The notes beneath the pieces were generated by a model. It had not been told where the DNA came from. It saw only the letters and a program-made list of their open reading frames with translations, and searched no databases. 43,601 nt of DNA, taken from IMG/VR virus record IMGVR_UViG_3300012924_000013, positions 1 to 43,601 of that record; one strand, given 5' to 3'. The position numbers and the translations under genes are program-made. Source of the stretch: a virus. How positions within the stretch are numbered: position 1 is the first letter of the stretch; each line of letters begins with the position of its first letter. Shown here piece by piece: positions 5,985 to 32,948 of this stretch.

Positions 5985-5985
5985 T

Positions 5986-7350: not shown

Positions 7351-7623
7351 ATGACGAAGATTGAACTAGTAGGGTTGACAGTAACAGACCTCCAGAATTT
7401 ATTGGATAATGCCGTTTCTAAGGCAATAGAAAGGTACAAAGAGGAACAAAGGACCCCTTCAGATTGGGAGGAATTGACATTAGATCAAGCAGCTCAAGAA
7501 CTACATTGCTGCAAAGCCACCATACGCCGAAAAATGATTCAGCTTAATATCCAAGGAGCCAAAACAGGAAAGGAGATATTGATTCAACGTAAAGACTTAA
7601 AAAAAATCAAGAAGGCTTCTTGA
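7351..7623 (+). CDS. Excisionase-like helix-turn-helix protein
   Basis: The start is the ATG at 7351, three bases after the previous stop. Residues about 1-40 form a coiled helix. Residues 42-88 match the MerR-like helix-turn-helix of phage excisionases (LTLDQAAQELHCCKATIRRKM, then a short wing and IQRKDLKKIKK). It lies last in the rightward operon and overlaps the integrase gene tail to tail by 17 bases. That is the expected position for a directionality factor that works with the integrase. The fold is clear; the excisionase role is inferred from context. Confidence 0.75.
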   Translation: MTKIELVGLTVTDLQNLLDNAVSKAIERYKEEQRTPSDWEELTLDQAAQELHCCKATIRRKMIQLNIQGAKTGKEILIQRKDLKKIKKAS

Positions 7624-15314: not shown

Positions 15315-15346
15315 TTTGGAAATCTCAATTGTTTGTCATACATTTG
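15315..15346 (+). promoter_or_regulatory. Strong Bacteroidota-type rightward promoter
   Basis: TTTG at 15315-15318 and TACATTTG at 15339-15346 with exactly 20 bases between, a full consensus. It drives the structured RNA region and probably the first rightward genes. Confidence 0.8.
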
Positions 15347-15351
15347 TCATG

Positions 15352-15735
15352 TAAAAGAAAATCTTCCCCCACTTCACGCCCTCTGTTAGCTGGGAGCAAT
15401 TCCAGGGTTGATGAGGATTCGTAGTAAAGTCGAGTGTGCGGAGATACCTTAAAGCGATTTAAGGTTCATAAATATCAATTGGGTGCTGTATCCGCGTCGC
15501 AATGTTCGGAAACCAACTACAGCCTTAGAATTACCTCAGCCGTCCCTAGTGGATTGTAGAATAAGGGAGAGAAACCGTATTCGTTGGGGGAAGGTGCCTT
15601 TAAAGTTTTTTATGATAATTTTACCTAAACTCTTTTTTAGCGGGTGGAGCACACCTTCTAACCGAAGGTACGTCTACTTAGTACTTAAGTATCCACGCCT
15701 CCGGCTGTATGTGAATATCTGAATAGATATATTAT
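15352..15735 (+). ncRNA. Candidate structured RNA or long leader of the late region
   Basis: About 380 nt with no credible gene, starting at a consensus promoter. Visible helices: CTGG/CCAG (15390-15405), an 8-base stem ACCTTAAA/TTTAAGGT capped by a GCGA tetraloop (15446-15465), GCTGTA (15485-15490) with TACAGC (15518-15523), GCGGA (15438-15442) with TCCGC (15491-15495) which would make a pseudoknot, ACCTTC/GAAGGT (15653-15669), ACTTA/TAAGT (15676-15690) and ATATCT/AGATAT near 15715-15730. I do not recognise the family. It may be a stand-alone RNA or an antitermination or riboswitch-like leader. Confidence 0.6.
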
Positions 15736-16331: not shown

Positions 16332-16776
16332 AGAAGTGAGATACTATATTCCGAAAATAAATGAATTTTCAATAGGGTTCAATTACTTAGAGAGATATTG
16401 GACAGCATACCCAGAAATTGATAAGTATGAAAACTGGGAAGAAAGCGTTTTTCCAACAGTAGCATTTAGCATTGAAGGAATAACGGAATCAATAGATAGA
16501 AAATTATTGAAAGTAAAATACCTCAATAAAGAAGATCTCGAATCCCTCAAATGGAAACATACCCATGAAAATGAATTCAAGTATAATATCAAAGAATCTT
16601 TTACAAATACCTATTACAAACTGAATTTTACTTTACTGGGTGAAATCCCCTGGCTGAGGATAGTACTTGTAATACCTCACAACAAAAATTATTCTCCAGG
16701 AAACCAAATATTTGAAGGTAAAGTTAAGAATATCAATGAATTTGAAAAATTAATGGAACAATTAGGAATAAAATAA
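16324..16776 (+). CDS. Hypothetical phage protein (150 aa)
   Basis: Coupled to the small gene before it. The product is mixed alpha/beta with several Trp and Tyr. A short tail of 10 bases separates it from the next start; that gap holds the first copy of the leader motif AAAAACCAAC. Function unknown. Confidence 0.7.
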   Translation: MIEEVRYYIPKINEFSIGFNYLERYWTAYPEIDKYENWEESVFPTVAFSIEGITESIDRKLLKVKYLNKEDLESLKWKHTHENEFKYNIKESFTNTYYKLNFTLLGEIPWLRIVLVIPHNKNYSPGNQIFEGKVKNINEFEKLMEQLGIK

Positions 16777-16784
16777 AAACCAAC
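16775..16784 (+). promoter_or_regulatory. Leader motif copy, AAAAACCAAC
   Basis: The 10-base core of the repeated late-gene leader motif, two bases before the ATG at 16787. Confidence 0.55.
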
Positions 16785-16786
16785 AT

Positions 16787-17074
16787 ATGAGTACATTTAG
16801 AATTGTTAAATCCCATAGGCTTAAAAGACATCAGCTTACTCCCGATTATACAACATTTGGTTATGTAATTCAGCACTTTCAAGAATTTGTAACCATTACT
16901 CAGCCCACATACGCATCACCTACCCTCTCTAATGGATCAAGAGGAATGTGGACCGATTATCATCTTGAAAATTATGCTACTTTCAACGAAGCCAAGAATA
17001 AATTGGATCAAATACTATCAGTTAAGGAACTTGAAGAACTGAAAGAAGAAGTAGTTTTTGAAACTAACAGGTAA
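16787..17074 (+). CDS. Hypothetical phage protein (95 aa)
   Basis: A basic N-terminus (MSTFRIVKSHRLKRHQL), a beta-rich middle and a Glu/Lys helix at the end. It is followed by a clear terminator, so it ends the first rightward transcription unit. Function unknown. Confidence 0.7.
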   Translation: MSTFRIVKSHRLKRHQLTPDYTTFGYVIQHFQEFVTITQPTYASPTLSNGSRGMWTDYHLENYATFNEAKNKLDQILSVKELEELKEEVVFETNR

Positions 17075-17107
17075 ATTTTTTATGTTTTGTCCCCTTATAG
17101 TTAAACG

Positions 17108-17134
17108 CCAACTCTTATCTAGGAGTTGGTTTTT
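17108..17134 (+). terminator. Rho-independent terminator
   Basis: Perfect stem CCAACTC/GAGTTGG with an 8-base loop and a run of five Ts. Confidence 0.85.
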
Positions 17135-17253
17135 ACATTATATAGCTAACTATAATAAGATTGATTAGTTTATACTTGTAAAGTATTAGTTTTATTCTTA
17201 ACTTTACTGGTGAAAAGACAAACCAACCTTCATTAAATTGATGAAACCCAAGA

Positions 17254-17628
17254 ATGGACGAGAAGGTGCTAGTGCAGAAGATTAAAAAAGAGTACGAGTC
17301 CCCTATTGAAATAGCCCTAAAATACTATTCAATAATCCTCAAACTAAATAATATCCCTATCCCAAACCGGGAACTGGAGCTATTGGCTTTTATAGCCGTA
17401 AGAGGTACTATCTCCTCCCCTTCTGCCAGAGATGAATTTATAAAGCAATTTCAGTCCACTCCAGGTACTATCAATAATATGATCTCCAAACTCAGCAAGT
17501 TAAAGTTGATAACCAAAGAGAATAGTAAATATCGTGTAGCATTTCCTTATAATAAAGTTGACTTTAAAAGCAAGCACTATGTATTCAATATAACGATAAA
17601 ATTGAAAGGGAATGACACCACAGAATGA
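17254..17628 (+). CDS. Winged-helix DNA-binding-like protein (124 aa)
   Basis: Residues about 40-95 read as a winged helix: a helical ELELLAFIAVRG segment, a turn, then the recognition-helix region QSTPGTINNMISKLSKLKLI followed by a short wing (TKENSKYRVAF). It starts a new unit after a terminator, with ACAAACCAACC 26 bases before its ATG. It ends inside the next gene. Its place a few genes before the terminase large subunit would allow a small terminase or late regulator role; neither is proven. Confidence 0.7.
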   Translation: MDEKVLVQKIKKEYESPIEIALKYYSIILKLNNIPIPNRELELLAFIAVRGTISSPSARDEFIKQFQSTPGTINNMISKLSKLKLITKENSKYRVAFPYNKVDFKSKHYVFNITIKLKGNDTTE

Positions 17629-17974
17629 ATGGAGAGATAAGGTAATAAAGGAAACGGCTGAGCAATTAAACCAACCGGAAGATATTGTAGCCATAATTGT
17701 AAAAAATCAATGGGTTAAGGCCAAAAAGGCAATAAAGCTAGTGAATCAGGTAGACCTACCAGGGTTAGGTAAGTTTTCAGTTAAGATAGGGAAAATAGAA
17801 AAGTTACTCCCCAAGTTCGAGTACTTTCTGGCTTCCTTTAAAAGAAAACAAGCAGCTACAACTGATCCTATGTTATTACACGGAGCTGCAAAGAAAGTGA
17901 ATGAAATGCAGGAGAATGTAGACAACCTCAAAAATAGACTATCCAAACTACAAGCAAGTGAAAATAAATCTTAA
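17612..17974 (+). CDS. HU/IHF-like DNA-binding protein (120 aa)
   Basis: Residues about 8-62 follow the HU/IHF pattern of an N-terminal helical pair (VIKETAEQLNQPEDIVAIIV) and the strand with LPGLGKFSVK, close to the PGFGKF signature of HU proteins. The DNA-binding beta arms are shortened or absent. The C-terminal half is a Lys-rich segment and a coiled coil (VNEMQENVDNLKNRLSKLQ). HU/IHF-like genes near the terminase are known in crAss-like phages. A role in DNA bending for packaging or gene control is inferred. Confidence 0.7.
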   Translation: MTPQNEWRDKVIKETAEQLNQPEDIVAIIVKNQWVKAKKAIKLVNQVDLPGLGKFSVKIGKIEKLLPKFEYFLASFKRKQAATTDPMLLHGAAKKVNEMQENVDNLKNRLSKLQASENKS

Positions 17975-18254
17975 AAATATATTAGAAGGAGCTAAGAACT
18001 CCATTTTCATTAAGGAAGCTATTGAAATAGTGTCTAAGGAACGTATGAAGATATGTAATGATTGTGAACATGAATCTGACTATGCAAGATTTAGAGGTGA
18101 AAAGTTTATGCGACCAGATAATTTCTGCAAAATTTGCAGCTGTAATCTACACTGGAAAACTAGATGTCTATCAGAAGAATGTCCACTAAAAAAATGGGAA
18201 GCCGAAGTATCTGATGAAGAAGATAAAGCAATACAAGAAAAGTTAAAAGGCTAA
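17958..18254 (+). CDS. Zinc-ribbon-like phage protein (98 aa)
   Basis: The spacing of Cys is that of a small zinc-binding phage protein: CNDC near residue 34, then CKICSC at about 53-58, then a later Cys and CPLKKW at about residue 74. Similar proteins sit near packaging genes in other phages and have no proven function. It overlaps the HU-like gene by 17 bases. Confidence 0.75.
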   Translation: MKINLKNILEGAKNSIFIKEAIEIVSKERMKICNDCEHESDYARFRGEKFMRPDNFCKICSCNLHWKTRCLSEECPLKKWEAEVSDEEDKAIQEKLKG

Positions 18255-18258
18255 TGTC

Positions 18259-18468
18259 ATGACGGCCACCATCAGTAATATCTCAATAGCAGAAATGATG
18301 AAACATTTAGAAAAGATGTCTAAACACTATACACATATTAGTATCAGTGTAGAAGGTTTAGGTGTAAAGGTTTCAACAAAAAGTAAGATAATAATAACTC
18401 CTGAGACAATTCAAATAAATACAGAAGACGAAATTGACCCTACTATAGACTTATATGATCTATTATAA
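18259..18468 (+). CDS. Hypothetical protein (69 aa)
   Basis: A helix at the start (NISIAEMMKHLEKMSKHY) followed by beta strands and an acidic end. Five bases after the zinc-ribbon gene. Function unknown. Confidence 0.65.
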   Translation: MTATISNISIAEMMKHLEKMSKHYTHISISVEGLGVKVSTKSKIIITPETIQINTEDEIDPTIDLYDLL

Positions 18469-18509
18469 CGACATAAAATTCGAGTATTGCGACATATAAG
18501 TGTCGTAAA

Positions 18510-18522
18510 TGAAAAACCAACC
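18510..18522 (+). promoter_or_regulatory. Leader motif copy, TGAAAAACCAACC
   Basis: Full 13-base motif. The G and A bases of an apparent ATG at 18509 belong to it, which argues for the downstream start at 18524. A hairpin CGACA/TGTCG lies just upstream. Confidence 0.6.
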
Positions 18523-18523
18523 T

Positions 18524-18808
18524 ATGAAAGAGAAGATTGATTATTATGATGAAGTATTAAAATTACTCCAAACCCTAAAGATAGAATACCCCCAGTACGA
18601 GATTTCTAAGCATATGGCAACTGCAACTTCAGATTACCAGGATATATGGGGTTTGACCGATAGGCAGCTGTATGACCTCCTAGATAAGTACCAATTTGAA
18701 TTATCCTGTGATTCCAAGCATTTAACCCCAGAGTCAGAGTTGGATAAGATCATAAAGGAGGGAATGAATTTGAGTAATATTTTAGATGAGGAAGATGAAA
18801 ATTATTAA
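18524..18808 (+). CDS. Hypothetical phage protein (94 aa)
   Basis: I place the start at ATG 18524 (MKEKIDYYDEV) because the earlier ATG at 18509 lies inside the repeated leader motif. The product is helical and acidic. The pattern HMATATSDYQDIWGLTDRQLYDLLDKY in the middle and the ending NLSNILDEEDENY are typical of small uncharacterised phage proteins. It overlaps the next gene's start. Confidence 0.65.
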   Translation: MKEKIDYYDEVLKLLQTLKIEYPQYEISKHMATATSDYQDIWGLTDRQLYDLLDKYQFELSCDSKHLTPESELDKIIKEGMNLSNILDEEDENY

Positions 18809-18965
18809 AGATATAATTAGTATCATTCTCTATCTCCCACTTTTTATAATAACATTTCCGGTAGAATATTCATTGTGGAAAGCCTATAAAAATGCTGGGT
18901 ATAAAATGTACCCATATCTAAAGTGGTTTTGGTATCACAACTTCAGAGATCATATTCACCTATAA
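18795..18965 (+). CDS. Small membrane-associated protein (56 aa)
   Basis: A 56-codon frame overlapping the end of the gene before. One hydrophobic segment (IISIILYLPLFIITF, residues 8-21) is followed by a basic, aromatic tail with several Tyr and Trp. It would be anchored in the inner membrane. Function unknown. Confidence 0.55.
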   Translation: MKIIKDIISIILYLPLFIITFPVEYSLWKAYKNAGYKMYPYLKWFWYHNFRDHIHL

Positions 18966-18975
18966 TCCATTTAAA

Positions 18976-19170
18976 ATGGAAATCCGAATTGTTAATGTCT
19001 GGAGAGCATATGAAAAGTATGCCTATGAAGAGTCTGATTTGGATTTAGGCCCAAGATTACTTTACAATAAAGGTAAATATCATAGAAGATTATACATAGG
19101 AATCATCGGATTTGGAATTTCATTCAGTTGGAGGAAACCCCTAAAAATACATAATGGCAAAGAAAAATAA
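18976..19170 (+). CDS. Hypothetical protein (64 aa)
   Basis: The product (MEIRIVNVWRAYEKYAYEES at the start) has a late hydrophobic segment (LYIGIIGFGISFSW) followed by a basic end. It overlaps the next gene. Function unknown. Confidence 0.6.
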   Translation: MEIRIVNVWRAYEKYAYEESDLDLGPRLLYNKGKYHRRLYIGIIGFGISFSWRKPLKIHNGKEK

Positions 19171-19447
19171 TTTCATTACCTATGAAATTGACTGGCTCGA
19201 TAGGAAGTTCAAAGAATTACAAAAATATGTTGACGATAGACCCTTCGATAAGTTAAAAGATAGAACTGACTCAGTAGGTAAAGTTATTTCTAAAATAGAA
19301 GATCAAATTAGAACCCTAAAAGATATTCTTAAAGATCTTCCATCTATGCTCGAAGCATTAAATAACCTAAGAGAGAAAGAAGAAAAGAAGTTAGGGCCAA
19401 TTAGAGGAGATCAAGCATTGTCCCCATTTGAGTCAGGAGATATTTAA
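19154..19447 (+). CDS. Coiled-coil protein just before the terminase (97 aa)
   Basis: Mostly one long coiled coil (about residues 12-80) with an acidic end. Its stop overlaps the terminase start as TAATG, so the two are translated together. That position would suit a small terminase subunit or packaging cofactor, but there is no visible helix-turn-helix, so this is only a suggestion. Confidence 0.65.
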   Translation: MAKKNNFITYEIDWLDRKFKELQKYVDDRPFDKLKDRTDSVGKVISKIEDQIRTLKDILKDLPSMLEALNNLREKEEKKLGPIRGDQALSPFESGDI

Positions 19448-22400
19448 TGAATCATTACACTCAAGATACTGTCAATATATTTTTCCCAGATCAAGAAGAA
19501 CCCATCTATGATCCGACAGATCCTATTTCAGATTATCAGTTCAAGGAATATTGGAAAAGAGAAAGAGATCGGTGTATAAATGGTTTCCATATAGCAGATG
19601 GTCAGGTATATATCCCAGGAGAATTATACAACCATTGTGTTTATTGGAAAATAGCTGCTTATATAGATAATCCAATCTCTGGAAGAAAAAGTCGTAAAAT
19701 TATAACCCCCATTCTTAGAGATATTGAATGGATGATTTTTAAGGATGTAGATACTTGTAGAAGAGATGGTAAGTTTTATAATTTAGTTGGGTCCAGGGAT
19801 TTCGGAAAAGCCTTAATAAATAGTGCTACACTATATACAACAACGGGAGAAATAGAAATAGGAAATTCTAAAGTAGGAGATCAAATATATGGTGCTGATG
19901 GTAAGCTGACTACTATTACAGGTGTGTATCCTCAAGGCAGTATTGATATTTTTAAAATCACTCTCAACGATGGAAGAGTATTGTATTGCTGTGATAATCA
20001 TATTTGGAAAGTTTGGAATTCAAGAAAAAAGAAATACGAAAATTTACCCTTAAATATAATAAGAAAAGATTACCTGCTTCCAAAAAAAGTTTCCTATAAA
20101 AATAGAAAAGGCATAGAATATAAATATGCAATACCTAATAATGAGGCAGTAGAATACAATGACAATGATACAACTCCAATAGATCCTTACTTTCTAGGAT
20201 TGTGGTTGGGAGATGGTGATAATAGGTATATAAGAATTACAACTGTTGATCGTGAAATAAAACAATATGTTGAAAAATATGCTGGTTTAAATAACCTTTT
20301 AGTTAAAGATTCTGGAAAATATGGGTATAGAATAACTTCTGGTACAGTCGGCACAAGAAAATATAGAAGAAACCACGTATACACAAAATTCAAAGATTTA
20401 CAATTAATTCAAAATAAACATATACCAAGTGCTTATTTCTATACATCTATTGAAAATAGAATGAACTTATTGAGAGGGTTGATGGATACAGACGGAAGCT
20501 GTTCAAAAGACGGAACTGTGGAATTCAGTACATCAAATGTAAAATTAGCAAAGGATTTTTATAGACTGGTAAGAAGTTTAGGAATAATAGCTACTTGTAA
20601 AAAGAGAAAATCAGGTTACAAGAAAAATGGTATTTACATACAAACAAAAGATTCATATAGATTTACTTTACTTACAGATAAATTGATATTTAAATTAGAG
20701 AGGAAACTAAAAAACATTAAGAGCCATAGATCAGAGCGAGTTTCAATAGTATCAATAGAAAGTTATGGTAAAGAAAACGCAACTTGTATAACTGTTGATA
20801 ACAAGGATCAATTATTTTTAACTGACAACTATACAGTTACCCATAACTCGATAATAGCTGCTTCATTAGCAGGACACAATTATTCCTTTTTTGATAATTC
20901 AGAGTCTGTAATATCAGGGGGGGAATCTTCCTACATAAAACTTGCTACAAATAAAATAGAAGACGGGTTAACCAATTATCATCCAGTATTCAAAAAGAAT
21001 AGGATTTCCTCCGATTGGAAAAAGGAAGTAAGAGCTGGTTGGAAAGATAAATCTTCTAATCAACCCAGTGATAAATCCTCCAACTCTGCAATAATTGTCC
21101 GAAACTATGAGATGGGGACTAAAACCATGGCCGCAAATGGTACACGTCCTGGATTTCACCTGATTGATGAAATTGGAACCATCCCCAATCTTATAGGTTG
21201 TGTGAAAGATAGTGATGGATGTTGGTGGTCTGGCGGCGGGGATAAGCCTTCATGCCTTGTAATGCTGGCAGGAACAGGAGGGGACATGGAAGTAGGTCAA
21301 GAGGCTGCTGATATATTTTATGCTCCAGATGTATACAATATGTTAGCATTTGAAGATACTTGGGAAACAGGTAAAAAAATAGGCAGGTTTATTCCTGCTA
21401 CAATGGCAAAAATGGCTTTTAAAGAGCCAATGAGATTATCTGATTATTTGGGGATTGATCATCCAGATCTAGATAAAATTACCATACTGGTATCAAATGA
21501 AGAAAAGGCATTTAAAGAATGGTGGGAACCTACTCATGCGAAAGCTAAAAAAGGTGGAGCAAAAACGCTTACAAAATTCTTAGCTTATTGGCCGTTAAAA
21601 CCCTCAGATAGTTTCCTTATAATTCAAGCTAATAACTTTAATATACATGCAGCTAGATTTCAACAATCTAGATTGAAGGAAAATAATATAACAGGTTCTT
21701 CTGTAGAAATAATAAATGATGGAGAAAAGTTAATACACAAATTCATAAATAAACAACCGGTATCCGAATTCCCTATAAAATCAACAGAAAGAGATGGTTG
21801 TGTAGTAATGTACGAAGCTCCTGTAATGGGGGCACCCAGAGGTTTGTACGTGGCGGGAATTGATCCATATAAGCAGGACCAGGCTAAATATTCTGATAGC
21901 CTGGGTGCCGTCTATATTTTTAAGCGTATCCATGATATTAAATCTGAGAAATATCAAGATATGATCGTGGCCCAGTATGTAGGTAGGCCGGAATCAATGA
22001 TTACATGGTATGAAACTACTAGAAACCTATTAAAATACTATAATGCAATTGCCCTATGTGAAAATGAGGATTATGGTTTTATACAGTACATGCTCTCTAA
22101 ACATGAAGGACATTATCTATCAGATCAGCCGGAATGGTTGAAGGATGTAATCCCTAACTCGAAAGTAAACAGGACAAAGGGTATACATGCCAATATAAAA
22201 ATAATCAATTACATAAATGGATTATTAAAAGAGTATACAGAAGAGGTAATTTCTACAGATAGAGATGAATCTGGAGTAATAATAAAAGAAGTAATAGGGA
22301 TGTCGAAGATACTTGACATCATGTTACTTGAAGAAATTATAAAATTTGGAGAAGGAAACTTTGATAGAATCCGGGCTATAGCACTCGCGATAGCAATGGC

Positions 22401-22554
22401 AAGGCACCTAGATCCCATTTATAAAGTATCTGAAGAAAATGGTGATCCTCGTTACAAATCCTATTTTGAAAAGAATAAGAATAAACCTCAATTATTCAAG
22501 GAAACCAGAACCCCAATAAGAGATAAAACAAGAATTAAGCGCTTATTTAAATAG
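19447..22554 (+). CDS. terL: Terminase large subunit with an in-frame intein (1035 aa precursor)
   Basis: The motor that pumps phage DNA into the capsid and cuts it. The intein fills residues 122-467; the spliced protein is about 689 residues. Splicing joins GSRDFGK (115-121) to Ser468 and rebuilds the Walker A loop. Walker B is HLIDE (Asp574, Glu575), with the coupling motif MLAGTGGD later. The nuclease domain shows GIDPYKQD (Asp806), LCENEDYG (Glu872) and FDRIRA (Asp973), as expected for an RNase H-type terminase nuclease. It is followed after six bases by the portal gene. Without splicing the ATPase site is broken, so activity depends on the intein. Confidence 0.93.
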   Translation: MNHYTQDTVNIFFPDQEEPIYDPTDPISDYQFKEYWKRERDRCINGFHIADGQVYIPGELYNHCVYWKIAAYIDNPISGRKSRKIITPILRDIEWMIFKDVDTCRRDGKFYNLVGSRDFGKALINSATLYTTTGEIEIGNSKVGDQIYGADGKLTTITGVYPQGSIDIFKITLNDGRVLYCCDNHIWKVWNSRKKKYENLPLNIIRKDYLLPKKVSYKNRKGIEYKYAIPNNEAVEYNDNDTTPIDPYFLGLWLGDGDNRYIRITTVDREIKQYVEKYAGLNNLLVKDSGKYGYRITSGTVGTRKYRRNHVYTKFKDLQLIQNKHIPSAYFYTSIENRMNLLRGLMDTDGSCSKDGTVEFSTSNVKLAKDFYRLVRSLGIIATCKKRKSGYKKNGIYIQTKDSYRFTLLTDKLIFKLERKLKNIKSHRSERVSIVSIESYGKENATCITVDNKDQLFLTDNYTVTHNSIIAASLAGHNYSFFDNSESVISGGESSYIKLATNKIEDGLTNYHPVFKKNRISSDWKKEVRAGWKDKSSNQPSDKSSNSAIIVRNYEMGTKTMAANGTRPGFHLIDEIGTIPNLIGCVKDSDGCWWSGGGDKPSCLVMLAGTGGDMEVGQEAADIFYAPDVYNMLAFEDTWETGKKIGRFIPATMAKMAFKEPMRLSDYLGIDHPDLDKITILVSNEEKAFKEWWEPTHAKAKKGGAKTLTKFLAYWPLKPSDSFLIIQANNFNIHAARFQQSRLKENNITGSSVEIINDGEKLIHKFINKQPVSEFPIKSTERDGCVVMYEAPVMGAPRGLYVAGIDPYKQDQAKYSDSLGAVYIFKRIHDIKSEKYQDMIVAQYVGRPESMITWYETTRNLLKYYNAIALCENEDYGFIQYMLSKHEGHYLSDQPEWLKDVIPNSKVNRTKGIHANIKIINYINGLLKEYTEEVISTDRDESGVIIKEVIGMSKILDIMLLEEIIKFGEGNFDRIRAIALAIAMARHLDPIYKVSEENGDPRYKSYFEKNKNKPQLFKETRTPIRDKTRIKRLFK
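19810..20847 (+). mobile_element. Class 3 type intein with LAGLIDADG endonuclease
   Basis: 346 residues (122-467 of the precursor). It starts with Ala, not Cys or Ser, and ends with HN before Ser468. The three residues that mark class 3 inteins are present: Trp187 in block B (NHIW), Cys447 in block F (ATCITVD) and Thr465 in block G (VTHN). Two LAGLIDADG motifs (LGLWLGDGD at 250-258 and LLRGLMDTDG at 341-350) show an intact-looking homing endonuclease. The intein interrupts the P-loop, a site that cannot tolerate imprecise loss. Confidence 0.9.
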
Positions 22555-22560
22555 TACTAC

Positions 22561-25131
22561 GTGGCTATTATAACCCATACTAAAGAACAACCTAATTACC
22601 TCCAATACCTAAATAACTACCCCAATCAAAGAGTTTCTGATAAAGTGAAACAATCTGATGATTGGGTGAAGAATACAATGGATTACTTTGAGAGTGAAGG
22701 ATTAAAACAATACTTCAGGAATAAGGAAACATTTGCAAAGAACTACAACCTAGTCAAAGGTATCCTCACCAGGGAAGATTTCTTTGAGGAGCCAGAGGTA
22801 AAATCATTGGTTGATACAATACTTGCCGGAGAAGAACTTCCTTCATATGTAAAACACTACCCTATACTGAACCCTCCTATCAATTCCATGGTAGGAGAAA
22901 TGTCTAAGCGTCCTGACAATGCTAAAGTAAAAGCAGTTGATAGTGATTCCCAAAGTCAGGAATTACAGTTTAAAACCGATATCCTTATACAATATGCAAC
23001 TCAGGTAATTAAGCAAATCAATATAAATAAAGCAGCTCAACAGGGGTTGGATATCAATTCTCCAGAGGTTATGGATCAAGTTGATCAATTAACTTCTCAA
23101 AAAGTACAGGAGGAAATAGATAATTATACATCAACAGCAGAAAAATGGGCCAATAAGATATTAGAATCTTGTAAGATAGATTTCAATATGAAAGAACTCT
23201 CAGAAGAAGGAATGAGAGATTTAACAATTGGCTCCAGGGAATTCTTCCACATTTTTGAAGATAATTCAAATCTTGGATTCAGTGTAGAGTGTGTAAACAC
23301 TAAAAAAGTATGGGGTCTAAAAGTTCAGGATAAAAAATATAGTAGGGATTGGTATGCAGGTGGAATAGTGGATGTGATGGAATTGTCAGAGATTATTCAC
23401 AAGTTTGATCTTACAGAAGAAGAGATAGATAATCTTGAAAATAAGGTAAAGGAAAATAATCTCATCTCCCCCAAAGAGTCCAATTTATTCAATGGTAAAA
23501 GTGGTTTAAGTTCAATTGACTATAATACTTATGACCCAACTGTAGTTAGGGAGAGGATGTTGGCAGAGGCTGACCTAATGGCAGATGGTCCTTCCATCGA
23601 TGACTTCTTAGGGACAAATAGTCGTACTTCAGCTCATGGATCGAAATTCACTGTAAATCAAAACTATTGGATTTCTAAAAAGAAAGTAGGTAAACTTACC
23701 TATGTAGGAGAAAATGATCAAATTCAATCTCTACTTGTTGATGAAAACTATAAAAAAATAGATACTCAGATATCTATTGAATGGACATGGGAAAACCAGT
23801 GGTATAAGGGGGTCAAAATTGGCCCAGAGGTATATAAAGTAGCCCCATTCTATCTCCTGGACTACTTACCTATAATTGGAGTAATTCATGAAATAAAGAA
23901 TGTCGATGAGGCAAGATCCCTTGTGGACTTAATGAAACCTCTCCAAGTTATCTATAACATCTGCTGGAACCAGATATTCAGACTACTAGAGAAGGAAATT
24001 GGTAATGTATTCTTGGGCTCATTGCGACATATCCCTACCGCAAAAGATGGAGATCCACAGGATTCTGAAGAAGTGTGGATGATGGAAGCCATGGAGAAAG
24101 GTATTCTTATGGTGGATGACTCTCCGGAGAACTTAAAAGCTCCTTCAGCATTTAATCAGTTCAAGAATATTGATTTAACTCGTTCTGCTGAAATTCAGTC
24201 AAGAGTCAATCTTGCAGTTCAGGTTAAGCTGGAATGTTGGGAATTAGTCGGCTTCTCTCAGCAACGACTGGGTAAAGTTCAGGCTACCGAGACAGCTACC
24301 TCTACAAATGCTGCCCTTGATGCGTCATATACTCAAACAGCTCCTTATTTCGTGCAACATGAGTATGTAATGAACCAAGTATATCAGGGTATTGTGGATG
24401 CAGCCCAGTATGTACAATCTCAAAATCCCCTGTCTACCCTATCTTATATAACGAATGAAGGTGAAAACTCTTTCATACAGGTAACTGGGGCAGAAATCCG
24501 TCTCCCTGATCTTAAAGTATTTGTTACCTCCCGTGCTGAAGATCAGAAATTCTTCCAGGATCTTAGAAATCTAAGTCAAAGTCTAGTTCAAAATGGAGCT
24601 ACTCCTTATGAAATAGCAGAAGTATATTCTACTAATTCTGTCAGGCAGATAAAGAAGATTTTAAAATCTGTTAAAGAAAAGAATGAGCAACTCCAGCAAC
24701 AAGATTATCAACTAAAAGAAGCTCAACTCCAGCAGCAGCAACAACAATTCATTGCCCAGCAACAAGCCCAATCTGCCGAAAAACAACAAGATATCTTTAA
24801 TGAAAATTATCAAAAACAATTAGACAGAATTTCAGCAGAACGCATCGCAGTTATTCAAACATCAAAAAATCAAGGCTCTAGTGTAAATGCCTCAACGCCA
24901 GTATTGGATATAACTTCTCTAAACTCATTAAATCAGCAAGAAATCAATGCAACTAATCAATATAACCTCCAAACACAAAAATTGGCTGCTGATCAAAAGA
25001 AACAAACAGAACAACATGCAACTGAAAGTGAGTATCTGAAAATAGAAAAAGAAAAATTAAAGTTAAAAGGTGAAGAAATAGCTTCTAAAGAAAGGATAGC
25101 CAAGGCCAACAAAAATAAATTTGATAAGTAG
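22561..25131 (+). CDS. Portal protein (856 aa)
   Basis: Begins with GTG six bases after the terminase stop. Size, position and layout fit a large phage portal, which forms the ring at the capsid vertex through which DNA passes and onto which the tail attaches. The N-terminal half is mixed alpha/beta and acidic. A central segment (YLPIIGVIHEIKNVDEARSLVD) precedes a helical stem region. From about residue 700 the protein is Gln-rich coiled coil, which could form the barrel or crown. I identify it mainly by context and length rather than by a catalytic motif. Confidence 0.85.
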   Translation: MAIITHTKEQPNYLQYLNNYPNQRVSDKVKQSDDWVKNTMDYFESEGLKQYFRNKETFAKNYNLVKGILTREDFFEEPEVKSLVDTILAGEELPSYVKHYPILNPPINSMVGEMSKRPDNAKVKAVDSDSQSQELQFKTDILIQYATQVIKQININKAAQQGLDINSPEVMDQVDQLTSQKVQEEIDNYTSTAEKWANKILESCKIDFNMKELSEEGMRDLTIGSREFFHIFEDNSNLGFSVECVNTKKVWGLKVQDKKYSRDWYAGGIVDVMELSEIIHKFDLTEEEIDNLENKVKENNLISPKESNLFNGKSGLSSIDYNTYDPTVVRERMLAEADLMADGPSIDDFLGTNSRTSAHGSKFTVNQNYWISKKKVGKLTYVGENDQIQSLLVDENYKKIDTQISIEWTWENQWYKGVKIGPEVYKVAPFYLLDYLPIIGVIHEIKNVDEARSLVDLMKPLQVIYNICWNQIFRLLEKEIGNVFLGSLRHIPTAKDGDPQDSEEVWMMEAMEKGILMVDDSPENLKAPSAFNQFKNIDLTRSAEIQSRVNLAVQVKLECWELVGFSQQRLGKVQATETATSTNAALDASYTQTAPYFVQHEYVMNQVYQGIVDAAQYVQSQNPLSTLSYITNEGENSFIQVTGAEIRLPDLKVFVTSRAEDQKFFQDLRNLSQSLVQNGATPYEIAEVYSTNSVRQIKKILKSVKEKNEQLQQQDYQLKEAQLQQQQQQFIAQQQAQSAEKQQDIFNENYQKQLDRISAERIAVIQTSKNQGSSVNASTPVLDITSLNSLNQQEINATNQYNLQTQKLAADQKKQTEQHATESEYLKIEKEKLKLKGEEIASKERIAKANKNKFDK

Positions 25132-25132
25132 T

Positions 25133-25990
25133 ATGTCTATTATTTATAAAACTACAAATCTAATAAATGGTAAAATTTATATTGGACAATCGGTTAGTAA
25201 TCATCAAAACTATTTAGGTAGTGGGGTAGCTTTAGAACTAGCTGTAAAAAAATATGGGAAACCTAATTTTTCAAAAGAAATTTTAGAAGAAGGAGATTTT
25301 TGTATAGAAAAGTTAAATGAGCTTGAAATACATTATATCGATATTTATAACAGTACTAATAAAAAAATTGGGTATAACATTTGCCGTGGTGGGGGAAACA
25401 ACTATCAAAACCACTCCAATAGAAAAAAAGAAAAACCGCGTCCCCCTATGAGCGAAGAGAGAAAACACGCTATCGCCACTGGTATAAAAAAATATTGGAG
25501 TAATTCGGTAACAAGAGAAAGAGAAAGTTTAAATAGAAGCATCAGACTCAAAGGAAGAAAAGTTTCTGAAGAAACTAGACAAAAAATATCCAAAAGTAAT
25601 AAAGGAAGAAAAGGAAGTCAAGAAAAAATACCAACATCTTTATATACAATAAAAGGAGAACAGCTATTAAATTTTGAAAGTATAGTGGAATGTGCTAGTT
25701 ATTTAAATGTCCACGACAGTAACATAGTAAATTGTATAAAAGGAAAGCATTCAAATTGTAAAGGCTATGTGATAGTTAAAAGAGGAGACCCTTTTAAATA
25801 TAATGAACCTGATCCCAGAAGTAGCGTAAAAATAGAAATGGTAGATCGAAGCGGAAATTTAATAACAAAGTTTAAATCGAAAAAAGAAGCCTATAATTAT
25901 TTAGGGGTTAGTAGTCATACTTTTGATAGATACCTAAGCGGTAAACGTACGAGATTTAATACAGACAATATTTTTAGATGTTCAGAATAA
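25133..25990 (+). CDS. GIY-YIG homing endonuclease (285 aa)
   Basis: I use the ATG at 25133 (MSIIYKTTNLINGKIYIGQS), just after the portal stop; the frame could start at 25121 inside it. The GIY-YIG core is intact: the two Tyr-containing strands, a Gly-Gln-Ser, and the catalytic Glu in NELEIHYIDIY. The C-terminal part carries NUMOD-type DNA-binding repeats: two copies of a SEE(R/T)+ helix with KGR motifs, and two later helix-turn-helix modules (IVECASYLNV and KKEAYNYLGVS). It is a free-standing selfish gene. Very AT-rich and Lys-rich codons set it apart from the virion genes. Confidence 0.93.
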   Translation: MSIIYKTTNLINGKIYIGQSVSNHQNYLGSGVALELAVKKYGKPNFSKEILEEGDFCIEKLNELEIHYIDIYNSTNKKIGYNICRGGGNNYQNHSNRKKEKPRPPMSEERKHAIATGIKKYWSNSVTRERESLNRSIRLKGRKVSEETRQKISKSNKGRKGSQEKIPTSLYTIKGEQLLNFESIVECASYLNVHDSNIVNCIKGKHSNCKGYVIVKRGDPFKYNEPDPRSSVKIEMVDRSGNLITKFKSKKEAYNYLGVSSHTFDRYLSGKRTRFNTDNIFRCSE

Positions 25991-25996
25991 AAACCA
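25989..25996 (+). promoter_or_regulatory. Partial leader motif copy, AAAAACCA
   Basis: Eight bases of the repeated leader motif, six bases before the ATG at 26003. Its flank (AATAAAAACCA) matches the copy before 16787. Confidence 0.4.
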
Positions 25997-26002
25997 TATT
26001 AT

Positions 26003-26320
26003 ATGTATTTAGAAGTAAAAGCTAAAAACCTAAAAGTAGACGAATCTAACATTGGTAAGTTATATGATGAAGTAGACTCTCCAGTATTTTTATGGGGACC
26101 ATTACACCTTAAACCAGAAGATATCAATCGGGTATGGGGTACTTCTAAAACTACTTCAGTTATACTCCTATATAGTGGAGAATTAATATTAGCCAAGGAG
26201 TACCATAGGGATTTAGTCAAAAAATTAGATGAATTAGAAAAGTTAGCAAGAGAACAAGGTGAAGAACCAGAAAGTCAATTAGAAGACCTGGAAGATGAAG
26301 ATTTGGAAGAAGAAGACTGA
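26003..26320 (+). CDS. Acidic-tailed virion-region protein (105 aa)
   Basis: The N-terminal 75 residues are beta-rich (LWGPLHLKPEDINRVWGTSKT). The C-terminus is a very acidic run of Glu and Asp. Before the homing endonuclease arrived it would have followed the portal gene directly. Possibly a head-assembly accessory protein; function unknown. Confidence 0.7.
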   Translation: MYLEVKAKNLKVDESNIGKLYDEVDSPVFLWGPLHLKPEDINRVWGTSKTTSVILLYSGELILAKEYHRDLVKKLDELEKLAREQGEEPESQLEDLEDEDLEEED

Positions 26321-26399
26321 GTTATCATCAATTAAATGAATGTAAATTTTCCCTTAGCTATATAATGGTTCATTTCTAATAAATTATATTAGTTTTTAC

Positions 26400-26430
26400 T
26401 TTGTAAAGTAATTAATTCACCATATCTTTG
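26400..26430 (+). promoter_or_regulatory. Bacteroidota-type promoter of the scaffold-capsid unit
   Basis: TTTG at 26400-26403 and TATCTTTG at 26423-26430 with a 19-base spacer. It lies in a 155-base gap before the scaffold-like gene, so the capsid genes can be transcribed separately from the portal. Confidence 0.8.
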
Positions 26431-26440
26431 ATATATCGTT

Positions 26441-26453
26441 TGAAAAACCAACC
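26441..26453 (+). promoter_or_regulatory. Leader motif copy, TGAAAAACCAACC
   Basis: Full 13-base motif, ten bases after the -7 box, so at the very 5' end of the expected transcript. It starts 35 bases before the ATG at 26476. Confidence 0.65.
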
Positions 26454-26475
26454 CCCTATTTAACCCCAAATACAT

Positions 26476-27720
26476 ATGGCAGAAAGAAGAGGTTTTGAAA
26501 CCACTAATGAACTCCCTCTCAATTTAGGTATAGAAGAAACAGAACTAATAGACTCTTCGGATCTTGATTCTTTTCTTTCTGATGCAGACCCCAAAGAAGT
26601 AACCCCCGTTAACCTTGAAAAAGAAGAGTCTCCTAAAGCATCAGAAAAGAAGGAATCCCCTAAAGTTAAATCCATGAAACAATCTCCTATTGAAGAAGAG
26701 GAAGAAGTTGATGTGGATTCATTTTTAGATGATGAGGAAGTTGAAGAAGAGGAAGAAAAACCTAAAGAAAAGAAATCTAAAGAAGAAGAGAAAAAAGACC
26801 CCGAAGAAACTCCTACCACAGAGGATGAATACAATCCCTTCTCAGAATTCGGTAAAGAACTCTATAGTTTAGGTGTCTTAGCAAAAGGTGAAAATGGAGA
26901 AGAACCTGAAATACTTACAGGTGAGCAATTACTTGAAGCAATCCAGGAAGAAAAGAGGAGTGGTGCATATCAGGTATTAGATAGTTACTTAGGTAGGTTT
27001 GGTGAAAAACACAAGAATTTCGTACTGGCTGTATTAGAAGGGGTAGCCCCAGAAGAATACTTTTCTGCATATAGTAAAATAGAAGCCTTTAGCAATTTAG
27101 ATATTACAGTAGAGGATAATCAGAAAGCAATTTTCAGAGAATTTTATAAAGGTCAAGGACTGAAGTCTGAAAAAATTGAAAAACTGCTTCAAAAATCTAT
27201 AGAAGACGGTGATTTAAAGGAAGACGCTACCGATTATCACCAGATACTTGTTGATAAAGAATCTAAATCCCTGGAAGACATTAAAGCTAAAAAAGCTCAG
27301 GAATTAGGTCAAAAAGAACAACAGAAAAGAGTTTACGAAAATAGTATCCGTACCATTCTTACAAATAAAATAAAGGAAAAGGAATTTGATGGTATCCCTG
27401 TAAATAATGATGTAGCTAATAACGCTTACGATTATCTCTACACTGAGAAATACCAACTGCCATCAGGAGAACTACTTACAGAATTTGATAGGTTTTTCTT
27501 GGACTTGAAACGTCCTGAAAATCATGAAATGAGAGTAAAAGTTGCTCTGTTGGCCTTGAACAACTTCAATTTAAGTGTTGTTAAACCCAGTATAATTACG
27601 AAAGAGACTAACGAATTGTTTGCTAATCTTCAGAAGAAAAGTAAAAAATCCCAATCCCCTGCTACAAAACAAACTGCTTCAACTCCTACAAAGAAGTTCC
27701 AGTTTACCCACCCCGAATAA
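26476..27720 (+). CDS. Scaffolding or capsid-assembly protein candidate (414 aa)
   Basis: Sits directly before the major capsid gene. The N-terminal 120 residues are low-complexity and highly charged (Glu, Lys, Ser, Pro; EEEEEVDVDSFLDDEEVEEE), then a helical region runs to about residue 390, and the C-terminus is basic (KSKKSQSPATKQTASTPTKK). Acidic N-terminus, helical core and basic capsid-binding tail are the usual build of phage scaffolds. No protease motif is visible. The assignment rests on composition and position. Confidence 0.75.
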   Translation: MAERRGFETTNELPLNLGIEETELIDSSDLDSFLSDADPKEVTPVNLEKEESPKASEKKESPKVKSMKQSPIEEEEEVDVDSFLDDEEVEEEEEKPKEKKSKEEEKKDPEETPTTEDEYNPFSEFGKELYSLGVLAKGENGEEPEILTGEQLLEAIQEEKRSGAYQVLDSYLGRFGEKHKNFVLAVLEGVAPEEYFSAYSKIEAFSNLDITVEDNQKAIFREFYKGQGLKSEKIEKLLQKSIEDGDLKEDATDYHQILVDKESKSLEDIKAKKAQELGQKEQQKRVYENSIRTILTNKIKEKEFDGIPVNNDVANNAYDYLYTEKYQLPSGELLTEFDRFFLDLKRPENHEMRVKVALLALNNFNLSVVKPSIITKETNELFANLQKKSKKSQSPATKQTASTPTKKFQFTHPE

Positions 27721-27754
27721 GAAAATAATTAAAAAATAAAATCTCTATACTAAA

Positions 27755-29305
27755 ATGGCTTTAAATACAATTGCCGGTTTTAATAATGGTTTTGTTGCCC
27801 GTAGAGTTTCCTCTATGGACAAACGTGTAGTCGGTAAACTGACCGATTCTAACCACTTGGAATCCCTTCATATGGAGTCCCCGACAAAATATGATAAAAA
27901 TGTAATATCTATATACACCCAGTCTTCTCTGTTCTCAAATGATTTGACGGATATGATTAATAAATCACGTCCTTTTTATCTCAAGAGCAACTCTGATTAC
28001 TGGAGCTGGGATGTAGATGTTCCGTTTGCATATCCTAAGATTATAGAGATCCCGGCAGAAACAGATAATCTAGCTAAACCTGGTATCGACGGTCAGGAAT
28101 TTTCTGTGGTGTTGGATACAGGCTATTTTGTAGCAAATGATGTAATTACCTCCCATAGGATATATTCCCAAGAATGGAAAGTAATTTCTGATCCTGCTCC
28201 ATATAATACTGGCTACTTGTATAAATTCACTCTGTTGTCAAACAACCCCAAAGTAGAATTTGTTCCAAAGCAGTGGTTATTGGTAGGTCTTGAACTGGAA
28301 AAAATTAACCACATGACTGGTGAGTTTGATAAGAAGTTGTCAAGCCTTGGTCCTCTTGGTGATAAAATCACATTGTTTGAAAGCCTCTCCGCTGGTTATG
28401 GTGTAGAACATACCGTAACTAAAGCAGCCATGGCTCGTACTTTAAAAGATGATAAAGGCCAACCTTTGGATCTCATTGTGTACATGGAAAATCGCAGGAA
28501 CGAACCTGGGAAGAAATATGACGGTCCTATTTTGTGGGAACCGTTTATCGAATCTCAGATGCGTAGAGAAATGCTCATGATGAGGAATAAGCGAAACATC
28601 TGGTCAAAAGGCGGTACTGCTAAAACCAATGGTAGCAAACAAGAAATTAAAAAGAATCCTAAAGGTATATATTATCAGATCCGTAACAACGGCCATCTGG
28701 TTCAGTATAATCGTGGACAGTTCTCTATAGCATTACTTCGTGATGTATTTGGTGATTTGTTCTATCGTAGGGTTCCTGCTGCCAAACGTAAAGTTAAAAT
28801 GTTTACCAATGAAGCTGGTATGGAAGTTTTCCGTACAGCAGCTAAAAATGATGCTCTGGCGCAAGGTCTGACTATCATTGCCGATGAACGCTTTATTAAA
28901 GGTGGTGGTCAGAGGATGATTCTGGATTGGGGCTTTGATGGTGTCGTAACCGCAGAAACTGGTAATATTGAAGTTGTCCATCTGATGGAACTCGATCTGC
29001 CGCAGTTGAACGGTGAATTTAGCCGCAACAAAAAATCCCCCCCGGTATTCTTAGTATTTAACGTTTCTCCTGATTCTGATGGTACTCTTACAGATAATAT
29101 CCGCGAAGTACGTCATGAAAAAGAAGCAAGTATGACTTGGGGTTATGTAGATGGTCGTATCCATCACTTAGGACATGCTGCATCAAAAGGTATGCAATCA
29201 GCTAACTCCGATCCTTGGTATAAAATCTGGATGGAAGATCGTTCTGACCTGTTTATCGAAGATTTGTCAACCGCAGTATTAATAGAGGAAATTCCTCAGT
29301 TATAA
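27755..29305 (+). CDS. Major capsid protein candidate (516 aa)
   Basis: Follows the scaffold-like gene and is followed by a terminator, as is usual for the most expressed phage gene. Codon use shifts to more CGT, GGT and CTG than in neighbours, which suggests high expression. The sequence has no enzyme motif. It contains repeated beta-rich stretches and long loops (HRIYSQEWKVISDPAPYNTG; RGQFSIALLRDVFGDLFYRR) compatible with a HK97-type shell protein. Size is right for a crAss-like major capsid protein. It would form the head lattice. The role is inferred from context. Confidence 0.85.
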   Translation: MALNTIAGFNNGFVARRVSSMDKRVVGKLTDSNHLESLHMESPTKYDKNVISIYTQSSLFSNDLTDMINKSRPFYLKSNSDYWSWDVDVPFAYPKIIEIPAETDNLAKPGIDGQEFSVVLDTGYFVANDVITSHRIYSQEWKVISDPAPYNTGYLYKFTLLSNNPKVEFVPKQWLLVGLELEKINHMTGEFDKKLSSLGPLGDKITLFESLSAGYGVEHTVTKAAMARTLKDDKGQPLDLIVYMENRRNEPGKKYDGPILWEPFIESQMRREMLMMRNKRNIWSKGGTAKTNGSKQEIKKNPKGIYYQIRNNGHLVQYNRGQFSIALLRDVFGDLFYRRVPAAKRKVKMFTNEAGMEVFRTAAKNDALAQGLTIIADERFIKGGGQRMILDWGFDGVVTAETGNIEVVHLMELDLPQLNGEFSRNKKSPPVFLVFNVSPDSDGTLTDNIREVRHEKEASMTWGYVDGRIHHLGHAASKGMQSANSDPWYKIWMEDRSDLFIEDLSTAVLIEEIPQL

Positions 29306-29404
29306 AATAAACAGAACTCATCACCGCTACCCGTAAGAACAGCGTCCCAGGATGAGGCATTTAAAATCCCTCCTAAAGGATTGAGTATCCTCAGTCGCCA
29401 GGAT

Positions 29405-29440
29405 CTTGGCAGATAATCACATCTTCTGCCAAGGTTTTCT
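29405..29440 (+). terminator. Terminator after the major capsid gene
   Basis: Perfect 9-base stem CTTGGCAGA/TCTGCCAAG followed by GTTTTCT. Probably partial, letting some transcription reach the connector genes. Confidence 0.7.
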
Positions 29441-29446
29441 GGAAAA

Positions 29447-29458
29447 TGAAAAACCAAC
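29447..29458 (+). promoter_or_regulatory. Leader motif copy, TGAAAAACCAAC
   Basis: Twelve-base copy directly after the capsid terminator. An apparent ATG at 29446 is part of it, which argues for the start at 29473. Confidence 0.6.
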
Positions 29459-29472
29459 AAACTAACTACATT

Positions 29473-30435
29473 ATGGGTAAACAAGGTAAAATAAGTATCC
29501 TGAAGAAAGAATACGCTGATCCGAAGAGTATTGAAGGCTCACTTGCAGCACTTGGTCGTCACAAATTTCCTATGACCGCAGATCGTATCGTTCCTTATAA
29601 AGAGAAAGATGGTAGTTATAGAACTGGTTTAGATGAAAACGCTTTATATATTAAGCGAATGAAACCAGAAGAACAAGTTATTGAGAAGGCAAGAGCAAAG
29701 GCAGAGAGAAAAAGATTGGAGGATGCTACTGGTTTAGACTTGGGTCCAAAATCTGACTACTATGTAAAAATGTTTGATGAGAACTTTGGAAATGCTAATA
29801 GGGCAATTATAGTAAGACTTCCAGGTAGTGATACAATATTTAATCTTGAAGATAACAGTGATGCTATCACATATGCATGGGTTAGTAGACATCCTTCAAT
29901 AGCCAGATCATTTGAACACTGGGAAAAAGGAGATGTTGAAGATCATAGAGTAAGGTTTTATGTAAATGACACCAATATCGAAGCTGAACTGGTTTATAAA
30001 AAGGAACATAAGATCAATAAAACCGTTCGTAAAATGGAAGATCTTGATCCTGAAAAGAAACGTAAAGTAGCTCGTTTGTTAGGTCTGCCAGTATCAGACA
30101 ATACATCTGAAATTGTTATCTACAACGAATTAAATAAGTACATAAAAACTGGAGAAGTGCAATTTGGTGAACATAAAGGAAGCGATTCTATTACAATGTT
30201 CGAACTCTTTGCTGACATGCAAAATGAAAATTTGAGTCTCCATGATCTCGCTCATCAGTTACTTACACATTCTGTATACCGCAGGAAACAAGGTGGTAGA
30301 ATTTATGACGGTGAAGTAAAAGTATTTGACTCTCTGGAAAAACTTATTGAATTCCTTGCAATTCCTGAAAACTCAGAAGACTTGTTTGCCCTAAAAGAAA
30401 GATTGAAAGCTAAGAAATCAATATTACAAGACTAA
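29473..30435 (+). CDS. Virion or head-completion protein of unknown role (320 aa)
   Basis: Start placed at ATG 29473 (MGKQGKISILKKEY), 15 bases after the leader motif. The product is charged and alpha/beta, with a helical, Arg-rich stretch near residue 80 (KARAKAERKRLEDATGL), an acidic centre and a Lys-rich C-terminus. Position between capsid and connector suggests a head-associated or internal protein. Its stop overlaps the next start (TAATG). Confidence 0.75.
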   Translation: MGKQGKISILKKEYADPKSIEGSLAALGRHKFPMTADRIVPYKEKDGSYRTGLDENALYIKRMKPEEQVIEKARAKAERKRLEDATGLDLGPKSDYYVKMFDENFGNANRAIIVRLPGSDTIFNLEDNSDAITYAWVSRHPSIARSFEHWEKGDVEDHRVRFYVNDTNIEAELVYKKEHKINKTVRKMEDLDPEKKRKVARLLGLPVSDNTSEIVIYNELNKYIKTGEVQFGEHKGSDSITMFELFADMQNENLSLHDLAHQLLTHSVYRRKQGGRIYDGEVKVFDSLEKLIEFLAIPENSEDLFALKERLKAKKSILQD

Positions 30436-32399: not shown

Positions 32400-32936
32400 A
32401 TGCCTTCATTAGATATTAACATTCAACCCACTCACAACCCAAAAACCATCGGCATCGCAGACGCCAGTATCTATGAAGTCAATTTTACTATTAATTCTCC
32501 AACAGTAGAAATCACTCCTCCAGGTTTTCCCAAAGTAGCAATTCCATTTATACCCAGATCTGTTAATATACTTAACAGCAATAACCTATTTATCACTGAA
32601 GTAGTAGATGAATCGTTTTTGACAATCCTCCCCGATGGAATTTACAAGGTAAAATATTCTATACAACCAGCAGTATCAACTTATGTAGAGAAGAACTTCA
32701 TCAGGATAGATGCTATTAAATGTTTGTACAGTAAAATAAGATTATCACTTCAGTTAGATGAATGTACAAATTGTTCATCATCTGAATTTAAGAAAAAAGA
32801 GAAAATACTTCAGAGAGTAAGGTTATTAATAGAGGGATCAGTAGCATCAGCAAATATATTCGATGATTTGGATGCAATGAAGAAATATAAACAAGCACAA
32901 GAACTACTTAGATCGATATCAAATTGTGAATGTTAA
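32400..32936 (+). CDS. Tail or virion protein of unknown role (178 aa)
   Basis: The N-terminal 100 residues are beta-rich and Ig-like (YEVNFTINSPTVEITPPGFP; DGIYKVKYSIQP). The C-terminal part is helical with a CTNC pair and a final CEC. The DGIYKVKYS and KCLYSKIRLSL patterns recur in uncharacterised virion genes of Bacteroidota phages. It starts the fibre region after a terminator. Confidence 0.7.
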   Translation: MPSLDINIQPTHNPKTIGIADASIYEVNFTINSPTVEITPPGFPKVAIPFIPRSVNILNSNNLFITEVVDESFLTILPDGIYKVKYSIQPAVSTYVEKNFIRIDAIKCLYSKIRLSLQLDECTNCSSSEFKKKEKILQRVRLLIEGSVASANIFDDLDAMKKYKQAQELLRSISNCEC

Positions 32937-32948
32937 AACCAAATAATT

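Follow-up and report, generated by a model that had tools for sequence, protein, structure and literature searches.

A two-part leader before two capsid-flanking genes in a clade of crAss-like phages

What does a short motif do when a phage repeats it in front of several of its genes? The question is raised by IMG/VR record IMGVR_UViG_3300012924_000013, a 43.6-kb linear contig (43,601 nucleotides (nt); here called the window, meaning the whole stretch analysed). A motif of 12–13 bases had been predicted from its sequence to be a leader element of rightward late genes; a translation enhancer, a target of an RNA-binding protein and the start region of late transcripts had been offered as possible functions. 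We found that this motif is one half of a two-part leader, conserved in related phages immediately before the two genes that flank the major head protein gene, and that this leader probably helps translation of the two corresponding messages.

Among the window proteins, matches to PHROGs revealed a terminase, a portal and a major head protein. The portal matched by tblastn those of uncultured crAss-like phages, phi14:2 and an Azobacteroides phage, and the gene block terminase, portal, pre-capsid gene, capsid and post-capsid gene matches that of phi14:2. Based on this homology and syntenic order, and with no formal phylogeny built, we assign the window to the crAss-like phages (Crassvirales). 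Its promoter type and the hosts of related phages suggest that its host belongs to the Bacteroidota. A near-identity search of phage records yielded no match to the window. Relatives comprised contig L004 (terminase 59% identical) and, from alignment queries, 80 capsid loci (57–59%) and 8 portal loci; single-protein scans yielded one relative. Genes in these relatives were called as simple ATG open reading frames (ORFs); the contigs are fragmentary, and those related to each other do not count as independent.

A leader shared by the genes on either side of the capsid

The major head protein gene (27755–29305, plus strand, phrog_11589), itself without leader, lies between a pre-capsid gene (26476–27720, plus strand, 414 amino acids), with 82 homologues at a median identity of 37%, and a post-capsid gene (29473–30435, plus strand). 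The pre-capsid protein of the window had no match in Pfam or PHROG and can be called scaffold-like by its position and acidic, lysine-rich composition alone. Before both flanking genes the leader has the same shape: AAACCAA, a spacer of ~10 nt, AACTACAT and then, 0–3 nt on, ATGG. In the window, the pre-capsid leader extends on the plus strand from TGAAAAACCAACC to AATACAT (26441–26475, AAACCAA at 26445–26451) and has homologous leaders in relatives. The post-capsid leader occupies 29443–29472 (plus strand), with AAACCAA at 29451–29457 and AACTACAT at 29464–29471. Among 58 distinct pre-capsid leaders, AAACCAA (or AAAACCA) was present in 49, a AACTACAT-type sequence in 56 and both in 48, with zero spacing between AACTACAT and the ATG in 44 of 53. 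The 65 distinct post-capsid leaders contained them in 52, 52 and 44 cases, respectively. Conservation of the leaders at these two genes contrasts with an identity of ~40% between the proteins.

The leader thus withstands the checks set for the original prediction, being conserved at the same genes in relatives and, in its two-part form (see below), not a host leader. The prediction nevertheless described a general leader of late genes, and that generality is ruled out. AAACCAA-type motifs preceded none of the homologues of the capsid (0/59), portal (0/54) and terminase (0/52) genes or of the genes at 31187 (0/62) and 32400 (0/55), and most other late genes of the clade likewise lack the leader. 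A single case was seen before homologues of the gene at 30435 (1/66); the matches before 21 of 42 homologues of the gene at 17958 seem to lie across the end of the preceding coding sequence. A third gene, belonging to phrog_4417, carries a short-spacer form of the leader in 5 of 8 genomes; it encodes a protein of 338 amino acids of unknown function (L103:13014–14030, minus strand, and homologues), and its leader shows no clear promoter or hairpin. At the equivalent genes of phi14:2, Fpv1, crAss001 and Lbo-JY46 the element is not present. Both halves were also enriched within 50 nt before start codons in ten genomes that were whole or nearly so: we counted 78 AAACCAA versus 16.5 in dinucleotide shuffles of the same leaders, and 27 AACTACAT versus 2.9.

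The two-part form is a phage leader rather than a bacterial one. The exact pattern AAACCAAN{3,14}AACTACATATGG occurred in at least 120 stretches of viral contigs, versus 21 for a rearranged control of equal composition. Among the 146 viral matches listed, 132 lay before the two genes (72 before post-capsid and 60 before pre-capsid homologues). The other 14 among the matches listed comprised 5 before seemingly cut-off pre-capsid genes, 6 before small ORFs that also follow an RNA or tRNA of this kind and 3 that look random. In a collection of 84,980 bacterial and archaeal species (257 Gb) there were 40 matches, which look like chance occurrences; not one of them precedes a relative of the two genes. 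A shorter pattern occurred in 1–5 copies in each of six bacterial genomes, about as often as its reversed control. The small ORFs are of two kinds, both with the full leader and an RNA or tRNA just upstream: MGKKE..ILRLRSEGKKYREI of 144–148 amino acids (L185, L187 and L224) and MGKEKWNTYTIQ.. of 105 amino acids (L202, L246 and L254). They are perhaps genes inserted behind a copied leader.

Within the window, the motif had been located correctly: TGAAAAACCAACC is exact at 18510–18522 and 26441–26453, TGAAAAACCAAC at 29447–29458 and AAAAACCAAC at 16775–16784. What had been missed was the second half AACTACAT, the placement behind a promoter, structured RNA or tRNA, and the restriction to two genes. 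The 12-mer TGAAAAACCAAC has three copies (18510, 26441 and 29447), all on the plus strand, and its reversed pattern none. The 9-mer AAAACCAAC has five, counting both strands, versus 0.8 expected and 0 of 100 shuffles reaching five; one minus-strand copy (17125–17133) is an arm of an inverted repeat resembling a terminator. The left module and the leftward genes had been said to have no copy, which is almost correct but for two exceptions. One AAACCAA (5974–5980), part of AAACCAAATAAT (5974–5985, plus strand) and absent from the copies originally listed, ends 5 nt before the left-module gene at 5986; another, at 12752 on the minus strand, precedes a leftward gene starting at 12735 and lies inside the preceding gene.

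The motif had also been said to move two start codons, which homologue alignments bear out. For the ORF at 29446, 84 of 88 homologues align from codon 10, so that the true start (MGK) is at 29473; for that at 18509, the commonest alignment start is codon 6, at 18524 (18/42), which places ATGAAAAACCAACCT (18509–18523, plus strand) in its leader. Since homologues show the upstream ATGs of these two copies, followed by AAA AAC CAA-like codons, to be unused, the motif is an untranslated leader, and a coding explanation (MKNQ N-termini) is ruled out. Further plus-strand copies are AAAAACCAACAT (16775–16786), which overlaps the stop codon of the preceding ORF, the start at 16787 being 2 nt beyond AAAAACCAAC; AGACAAACCAACC (17216–17228), before the start at 17254 and downstream of a weaker promoter-like TAACTTTA; and AAACCAA before the start at 32949 (32936–32948). 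No homologues of the gene at 16787 were found for a conservation check, and only 5 of 42 leaders homologous to that at 17254 contain an AAACCAA-type motif.

Promoter, folded RNA and tRNA upstream of the leader

A Bacteroidota-type promoter, TTTG-N19-TATCTTTG (26400–26430, plus strand), precedes the pre-capsid gene and is the sole TTTG-N19-TAnnTTTG match in the window. As originally described, the motif at 26441 begins 10 nt past the end of the −7 box TATCTTTG (26423–26430). In relatives, TTTG-N-TAnnTTTN occurs before the pre-capsid gene in 52 of 62 cases (0.7% of shuffles), the spacer is 19 in all 51 placed, and AAACCA usually lies 6–9 nt past the −7 element. As 4–5 nt separate the −7 element from the transcription start in Flavobacterium johnsoniae (PMC6847099), most pre-capsid transcripts of the relatives should begin just before AAACCA. 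The suggestion that the motif marks the start region of late transcripts fits the predicted transcript start at the gene at 26476. At the post-capsid gene a promoter was detected in only 1 of 67 cases, and a promoter element is ruled out. The upstream element matches the Bacteroidota primary sigma promoter (−33 TTTG/−7 TAnnTTTG, spacer 19), whereas the motif lies downstream of it at one gene and is present without it at the other. Another promoter-like sequence, TTTG-N20-TAcaTTTG, is followed by a gene-poor stretch (window 15315–15720) that seemed RNA-like by eye; a structured RNA in the region 15365–15690 is not supported, as it folds no better than shuffles (z-score −0.04) and has no Rfam match.

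In the interval between the capsid and post-capsid genes, relatives have a three-way-junction RNA directly before the leader (e.g., L044:11653–11728 and L025:11650–11725). It consists of an outer stem CAGAGUG/CACUCUG, one variable arm and a hairpin with the loop UUCRAU. Across 42 sequences, 94.4% of cells pair, versus 37–47% when the alignment is slid, and compensatory changes occur in 16 of 18 pairs, with 111 such cells versus 28.9 in shuffles. The structure was drawn from these same 42 sequences, and the contrast is exaggerated by their relatedness; the values nevertheless exceed both controls by a wide margin. Rfam yielded no match at E-values up to 1 in L044, L025 and L018, and none in the window. 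This element appears to be an undescribed structured RNA with strong covariation and without an Rfam family. Its model, R1, detects a single copy per genome in this position, including in contigs not used for its build, many of which are close to contigs that were, and has no match in the window. We considered its 3′ hairpin as a tRNA T-loop and dropped this idea because the loop has 6 nt (UUCRAU) and not 7.

A tRNA is found at the same place in 10 distinct contexts, nine of them read as tRNA-Met, either between the folded RNA and the leader or replacing the folded RNA, with 3′ ends 0–7 nt before AAACCA. In nine contigs (L153, L155, L168, L184, L185, L190, L223, L241 and L257), a tRNA-Met (CAT) is packed between the two, a few bases from each. 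The window has no tRNA at the leader; a predicted hairpin (29398–29442, plus strand) occupies the site of the relatives' junction RNA or tRNA directly before the post-capsid leader and ends 8 nt before AAACCAA. Likewise, a predicted 9-bp hairpin (18487–18508, plus strand) ends 5 nt before AAACCAA of the copy at 18510. A general hairpin before other AAACCAA sites was set aside as weak, 11 of 60 having at most 2 of 40 shuffles as stable. Overall, AAACCAA usually lies 5–9 nt past a promoter, a three-way-junction RNA or a tRNA, and the distance to AAACCA is alike for the three devices: 6–9 nt for the promoter (91/100), 5–8 for the stem (95/107) and 6–7 for the tRNA (9/10).

Excision of tRNAs to make mRNA ends is known from mitochondria as tRNA punctuation. 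The phage arrangement resembles it in having a tRNA or folded RNA between two genes, with its 3′ end a few nt away from the leader. It differs in that cleavage here is putative and that the folded RNA, with one variable arm and the hexaloop UUCRAU, is not a canonical tRNA.

A proposed role in translation without Shine-Dalgarno pairing, and competing explanations

From these sequences, we infer where the mRNAs begin, how they are cleaved and what the leader does to translation, as follows. The first part, AAACCAA, would be anchored to the mRNA 5′ end, usually 5–9 nt past whatever makes it, and the second part, AACTACAT, to the start codon, 0–3 nt before it. A host-type promoter would supply the 5′ end at the pre-capsid gene; at the post-capsid gene, the capsid transcript would be cut next to the tRNA or folded RNA that it contains, in the manner of tRNA punctuation. 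This unstructured, sequence-specific leader, poor in G, would then promote ribosome loading without Shine-Dalgarno pairing. The element may therefore be a clade-specific 5′ leader of capsid-region mRNAs, with ends made by a promoter or by RNA processing, that promotes translation in hosts lacking such pairing, an account to which we assign about an even chance. We favour enhanced initiation because AACTACAT abuts the start codon, because the leader is unstructured and G-poor while Bacteroidota ribosomes ignore Shine-Dalgarno pairing (PMC6847099, PMC9976891), and because AAACCAA by itself ranks first among the A5C2 7-mers that precede closely packed starts inside operons, also when the two flagship genes are left out. 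This last enrichment and the phrog_4417 leader without clear promoter fit an action at the RNA level near start codons.

The motif had been described as not complementary to the anti-Shine-Dalgarno end of 16S rRNA, and this holds in three Flavobacteriia-type 16S genes, which may not be those of the host and from which TTGGTT is absent. The best 16S pairing, at about position 941, has 10 bp including a G-U, which is not significant against shuffled means near 8 and maxima of 9–13. Initiation in F. johnsoniae uses unstructured, sequence-specific leaders without Shine-Dalgarno pairing and prefers A at −3 and −6 (PMC6847099). The phage leaders resemble these Kozak-like leaders in being A-rich (42% A in the clade), with bases before the start that matter, and without stable structure (window 26433–26480 folds at −0.9 kcal/mol); they differ in having a specific two-part sequence at few genes and a spacing to the ATG that varies by 0–3 nt. 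Phage-encoded bS21 has been proposed to take over Bacteroidota ribosomes and redirect them to late phage mRNAs (PMC9723584, PMC9976891). The idea of redirection is shared here, but the signal is in the mRNA, and bS21 (PF01165) was found in 0 of 20 contigs, all possibly incomplete.

Several observations weigh against a translational leader of this kind. The common form carries C at −3 and −6, positions at which A is preferred in F. johnsoniae, and the capsid gene, probably the most translated one, has no leader, so that the element is not a general enhancer. In the window, AAACCAA at the 26441 site lies 14 nt past the −7 box and the folded RNA is a plain hairpin only; where homologues are available, relatives do not share the copies at 16775, 17216 and 18510. 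In addition, the half motif AAAACCAA occurs before ATG at ~50 per Mb in phages and in six bacterial genomes alike.

The missing leader at the capsid gene and the C at −3 and −6 make a regulator a serious rival. The leader could be the target of an RNA-binding protein of the phage by which translation of the two genes flanking the capsid is repressed or coupled. Its restriction to two (sometimes three) genes around a capsid gene without it, and the strictness with which its bases are conserved next to the start codon, would agree with this. Translational operators of phages, recognised by repressor or coat proteins, are likewise sequence-specific elements beside the start codons of selected phage genes, but the leader is not a hairpin operator and has no known binding protein; no candidate protein was identified, none having been sought, and the enrichment of AAACCAA by itself extends to many unrelated starts. 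We consider such a regulator possible, with a real but minority chance of being correct. The fixed distance to tRNA or stem 3′ ends could alternatively mean that the leader marks or protects a processed 5′ end as an mRNA stability or processing signal, with no action on ribosomes. The anchoring of AACTACAT to the start codon rather than to the 5′ end, and the phrog_4417 leader without evident upstream device, make this unlikely.

An action on DNA, as initial transcribed sequence or part of a late promoter, is less likely still: the position of AAACCAA 6–9 nt past the −7 element in most relatives would suit it at the pre-capsid gene, but the post-capsid gene has a tRNA or folded RNA directly upstream instead of a promoter, four further genes whose promoter reads TTTG-N19-TAnnTTTG lack AAACCA, and many sites directly follow a preceding gene. 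Finally, A-rich leaders might yield AAACCAA by composition, or the element might be an ordinary host leader, as the density of the half motif in bacteria would allow. The enrichment over shuffles of the same leaders, the conservation at the same two genes and the chance-level occurrence of the two-part form in bacterial genomes leave this explanation a very small probability. It is refuted for the two capsid-flanking genes and may hold for the copies of the window at 16775, 17216 and 18510. An origin as bacterial leader is accordingly rejected for the two-part form but not for AAAACCAA, which is not phage-specific, the excess of AAAACCAA-ATG over its reversed control nonetheless being larger in phages than in bacterial genomes.

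Returning to enhanced initiation, a bolder version of it would have this large clade of Bacteroidota-type phages use the two-part leader as its own ribosome-recruitment signal. Three devices able to replace one another would put it at the 5′ end of the capsid-flanking messages: a promoter, the excision of a tRNA, and the new three-way-junction RNA, itself acting as processing signal or ribozyme. We advance this version only tentatively and regard it as rather doubtful.

Neighbouring genes and implications

Three other features of the window deserve mention. Its terminase gene (19447–22554) encodes 1035 amino acids, compared with a 704-amino-acid ORF in L004, and its residues ~113–470 have matches in unrelated phages to terminase, primase and hint-type proteins; the extra length and these matches make an intein likely. 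A homing-endonuclease gene (25121–25990), located between the portal and the capsid region, was not found in relatives. The minus-strand gene at 7607–8776 has a tyrosine-recombinase-like integrase match in PHROGs, which is unexpected since crAss-like phages are usually thought to be lytic.

We found no prior report in the literature on crAss-like promoters, leaders and tRNA-like elements, subscription journals and preprints not being covered. How Bacteroidota ribosomes choose mRNAs without Shine-Dalgarno pairing is an open question, for which this leader, kept almost base by base at two genes whose proteins have drifted to ~40% identity, offers a signal that can be tested as it stands. The covarying RNA would represent a new family of structured RNAs from an abundant group of phages, and contigs with a tRNA before the leader provide a natural experiment on the making of mRNA 5′ ends.

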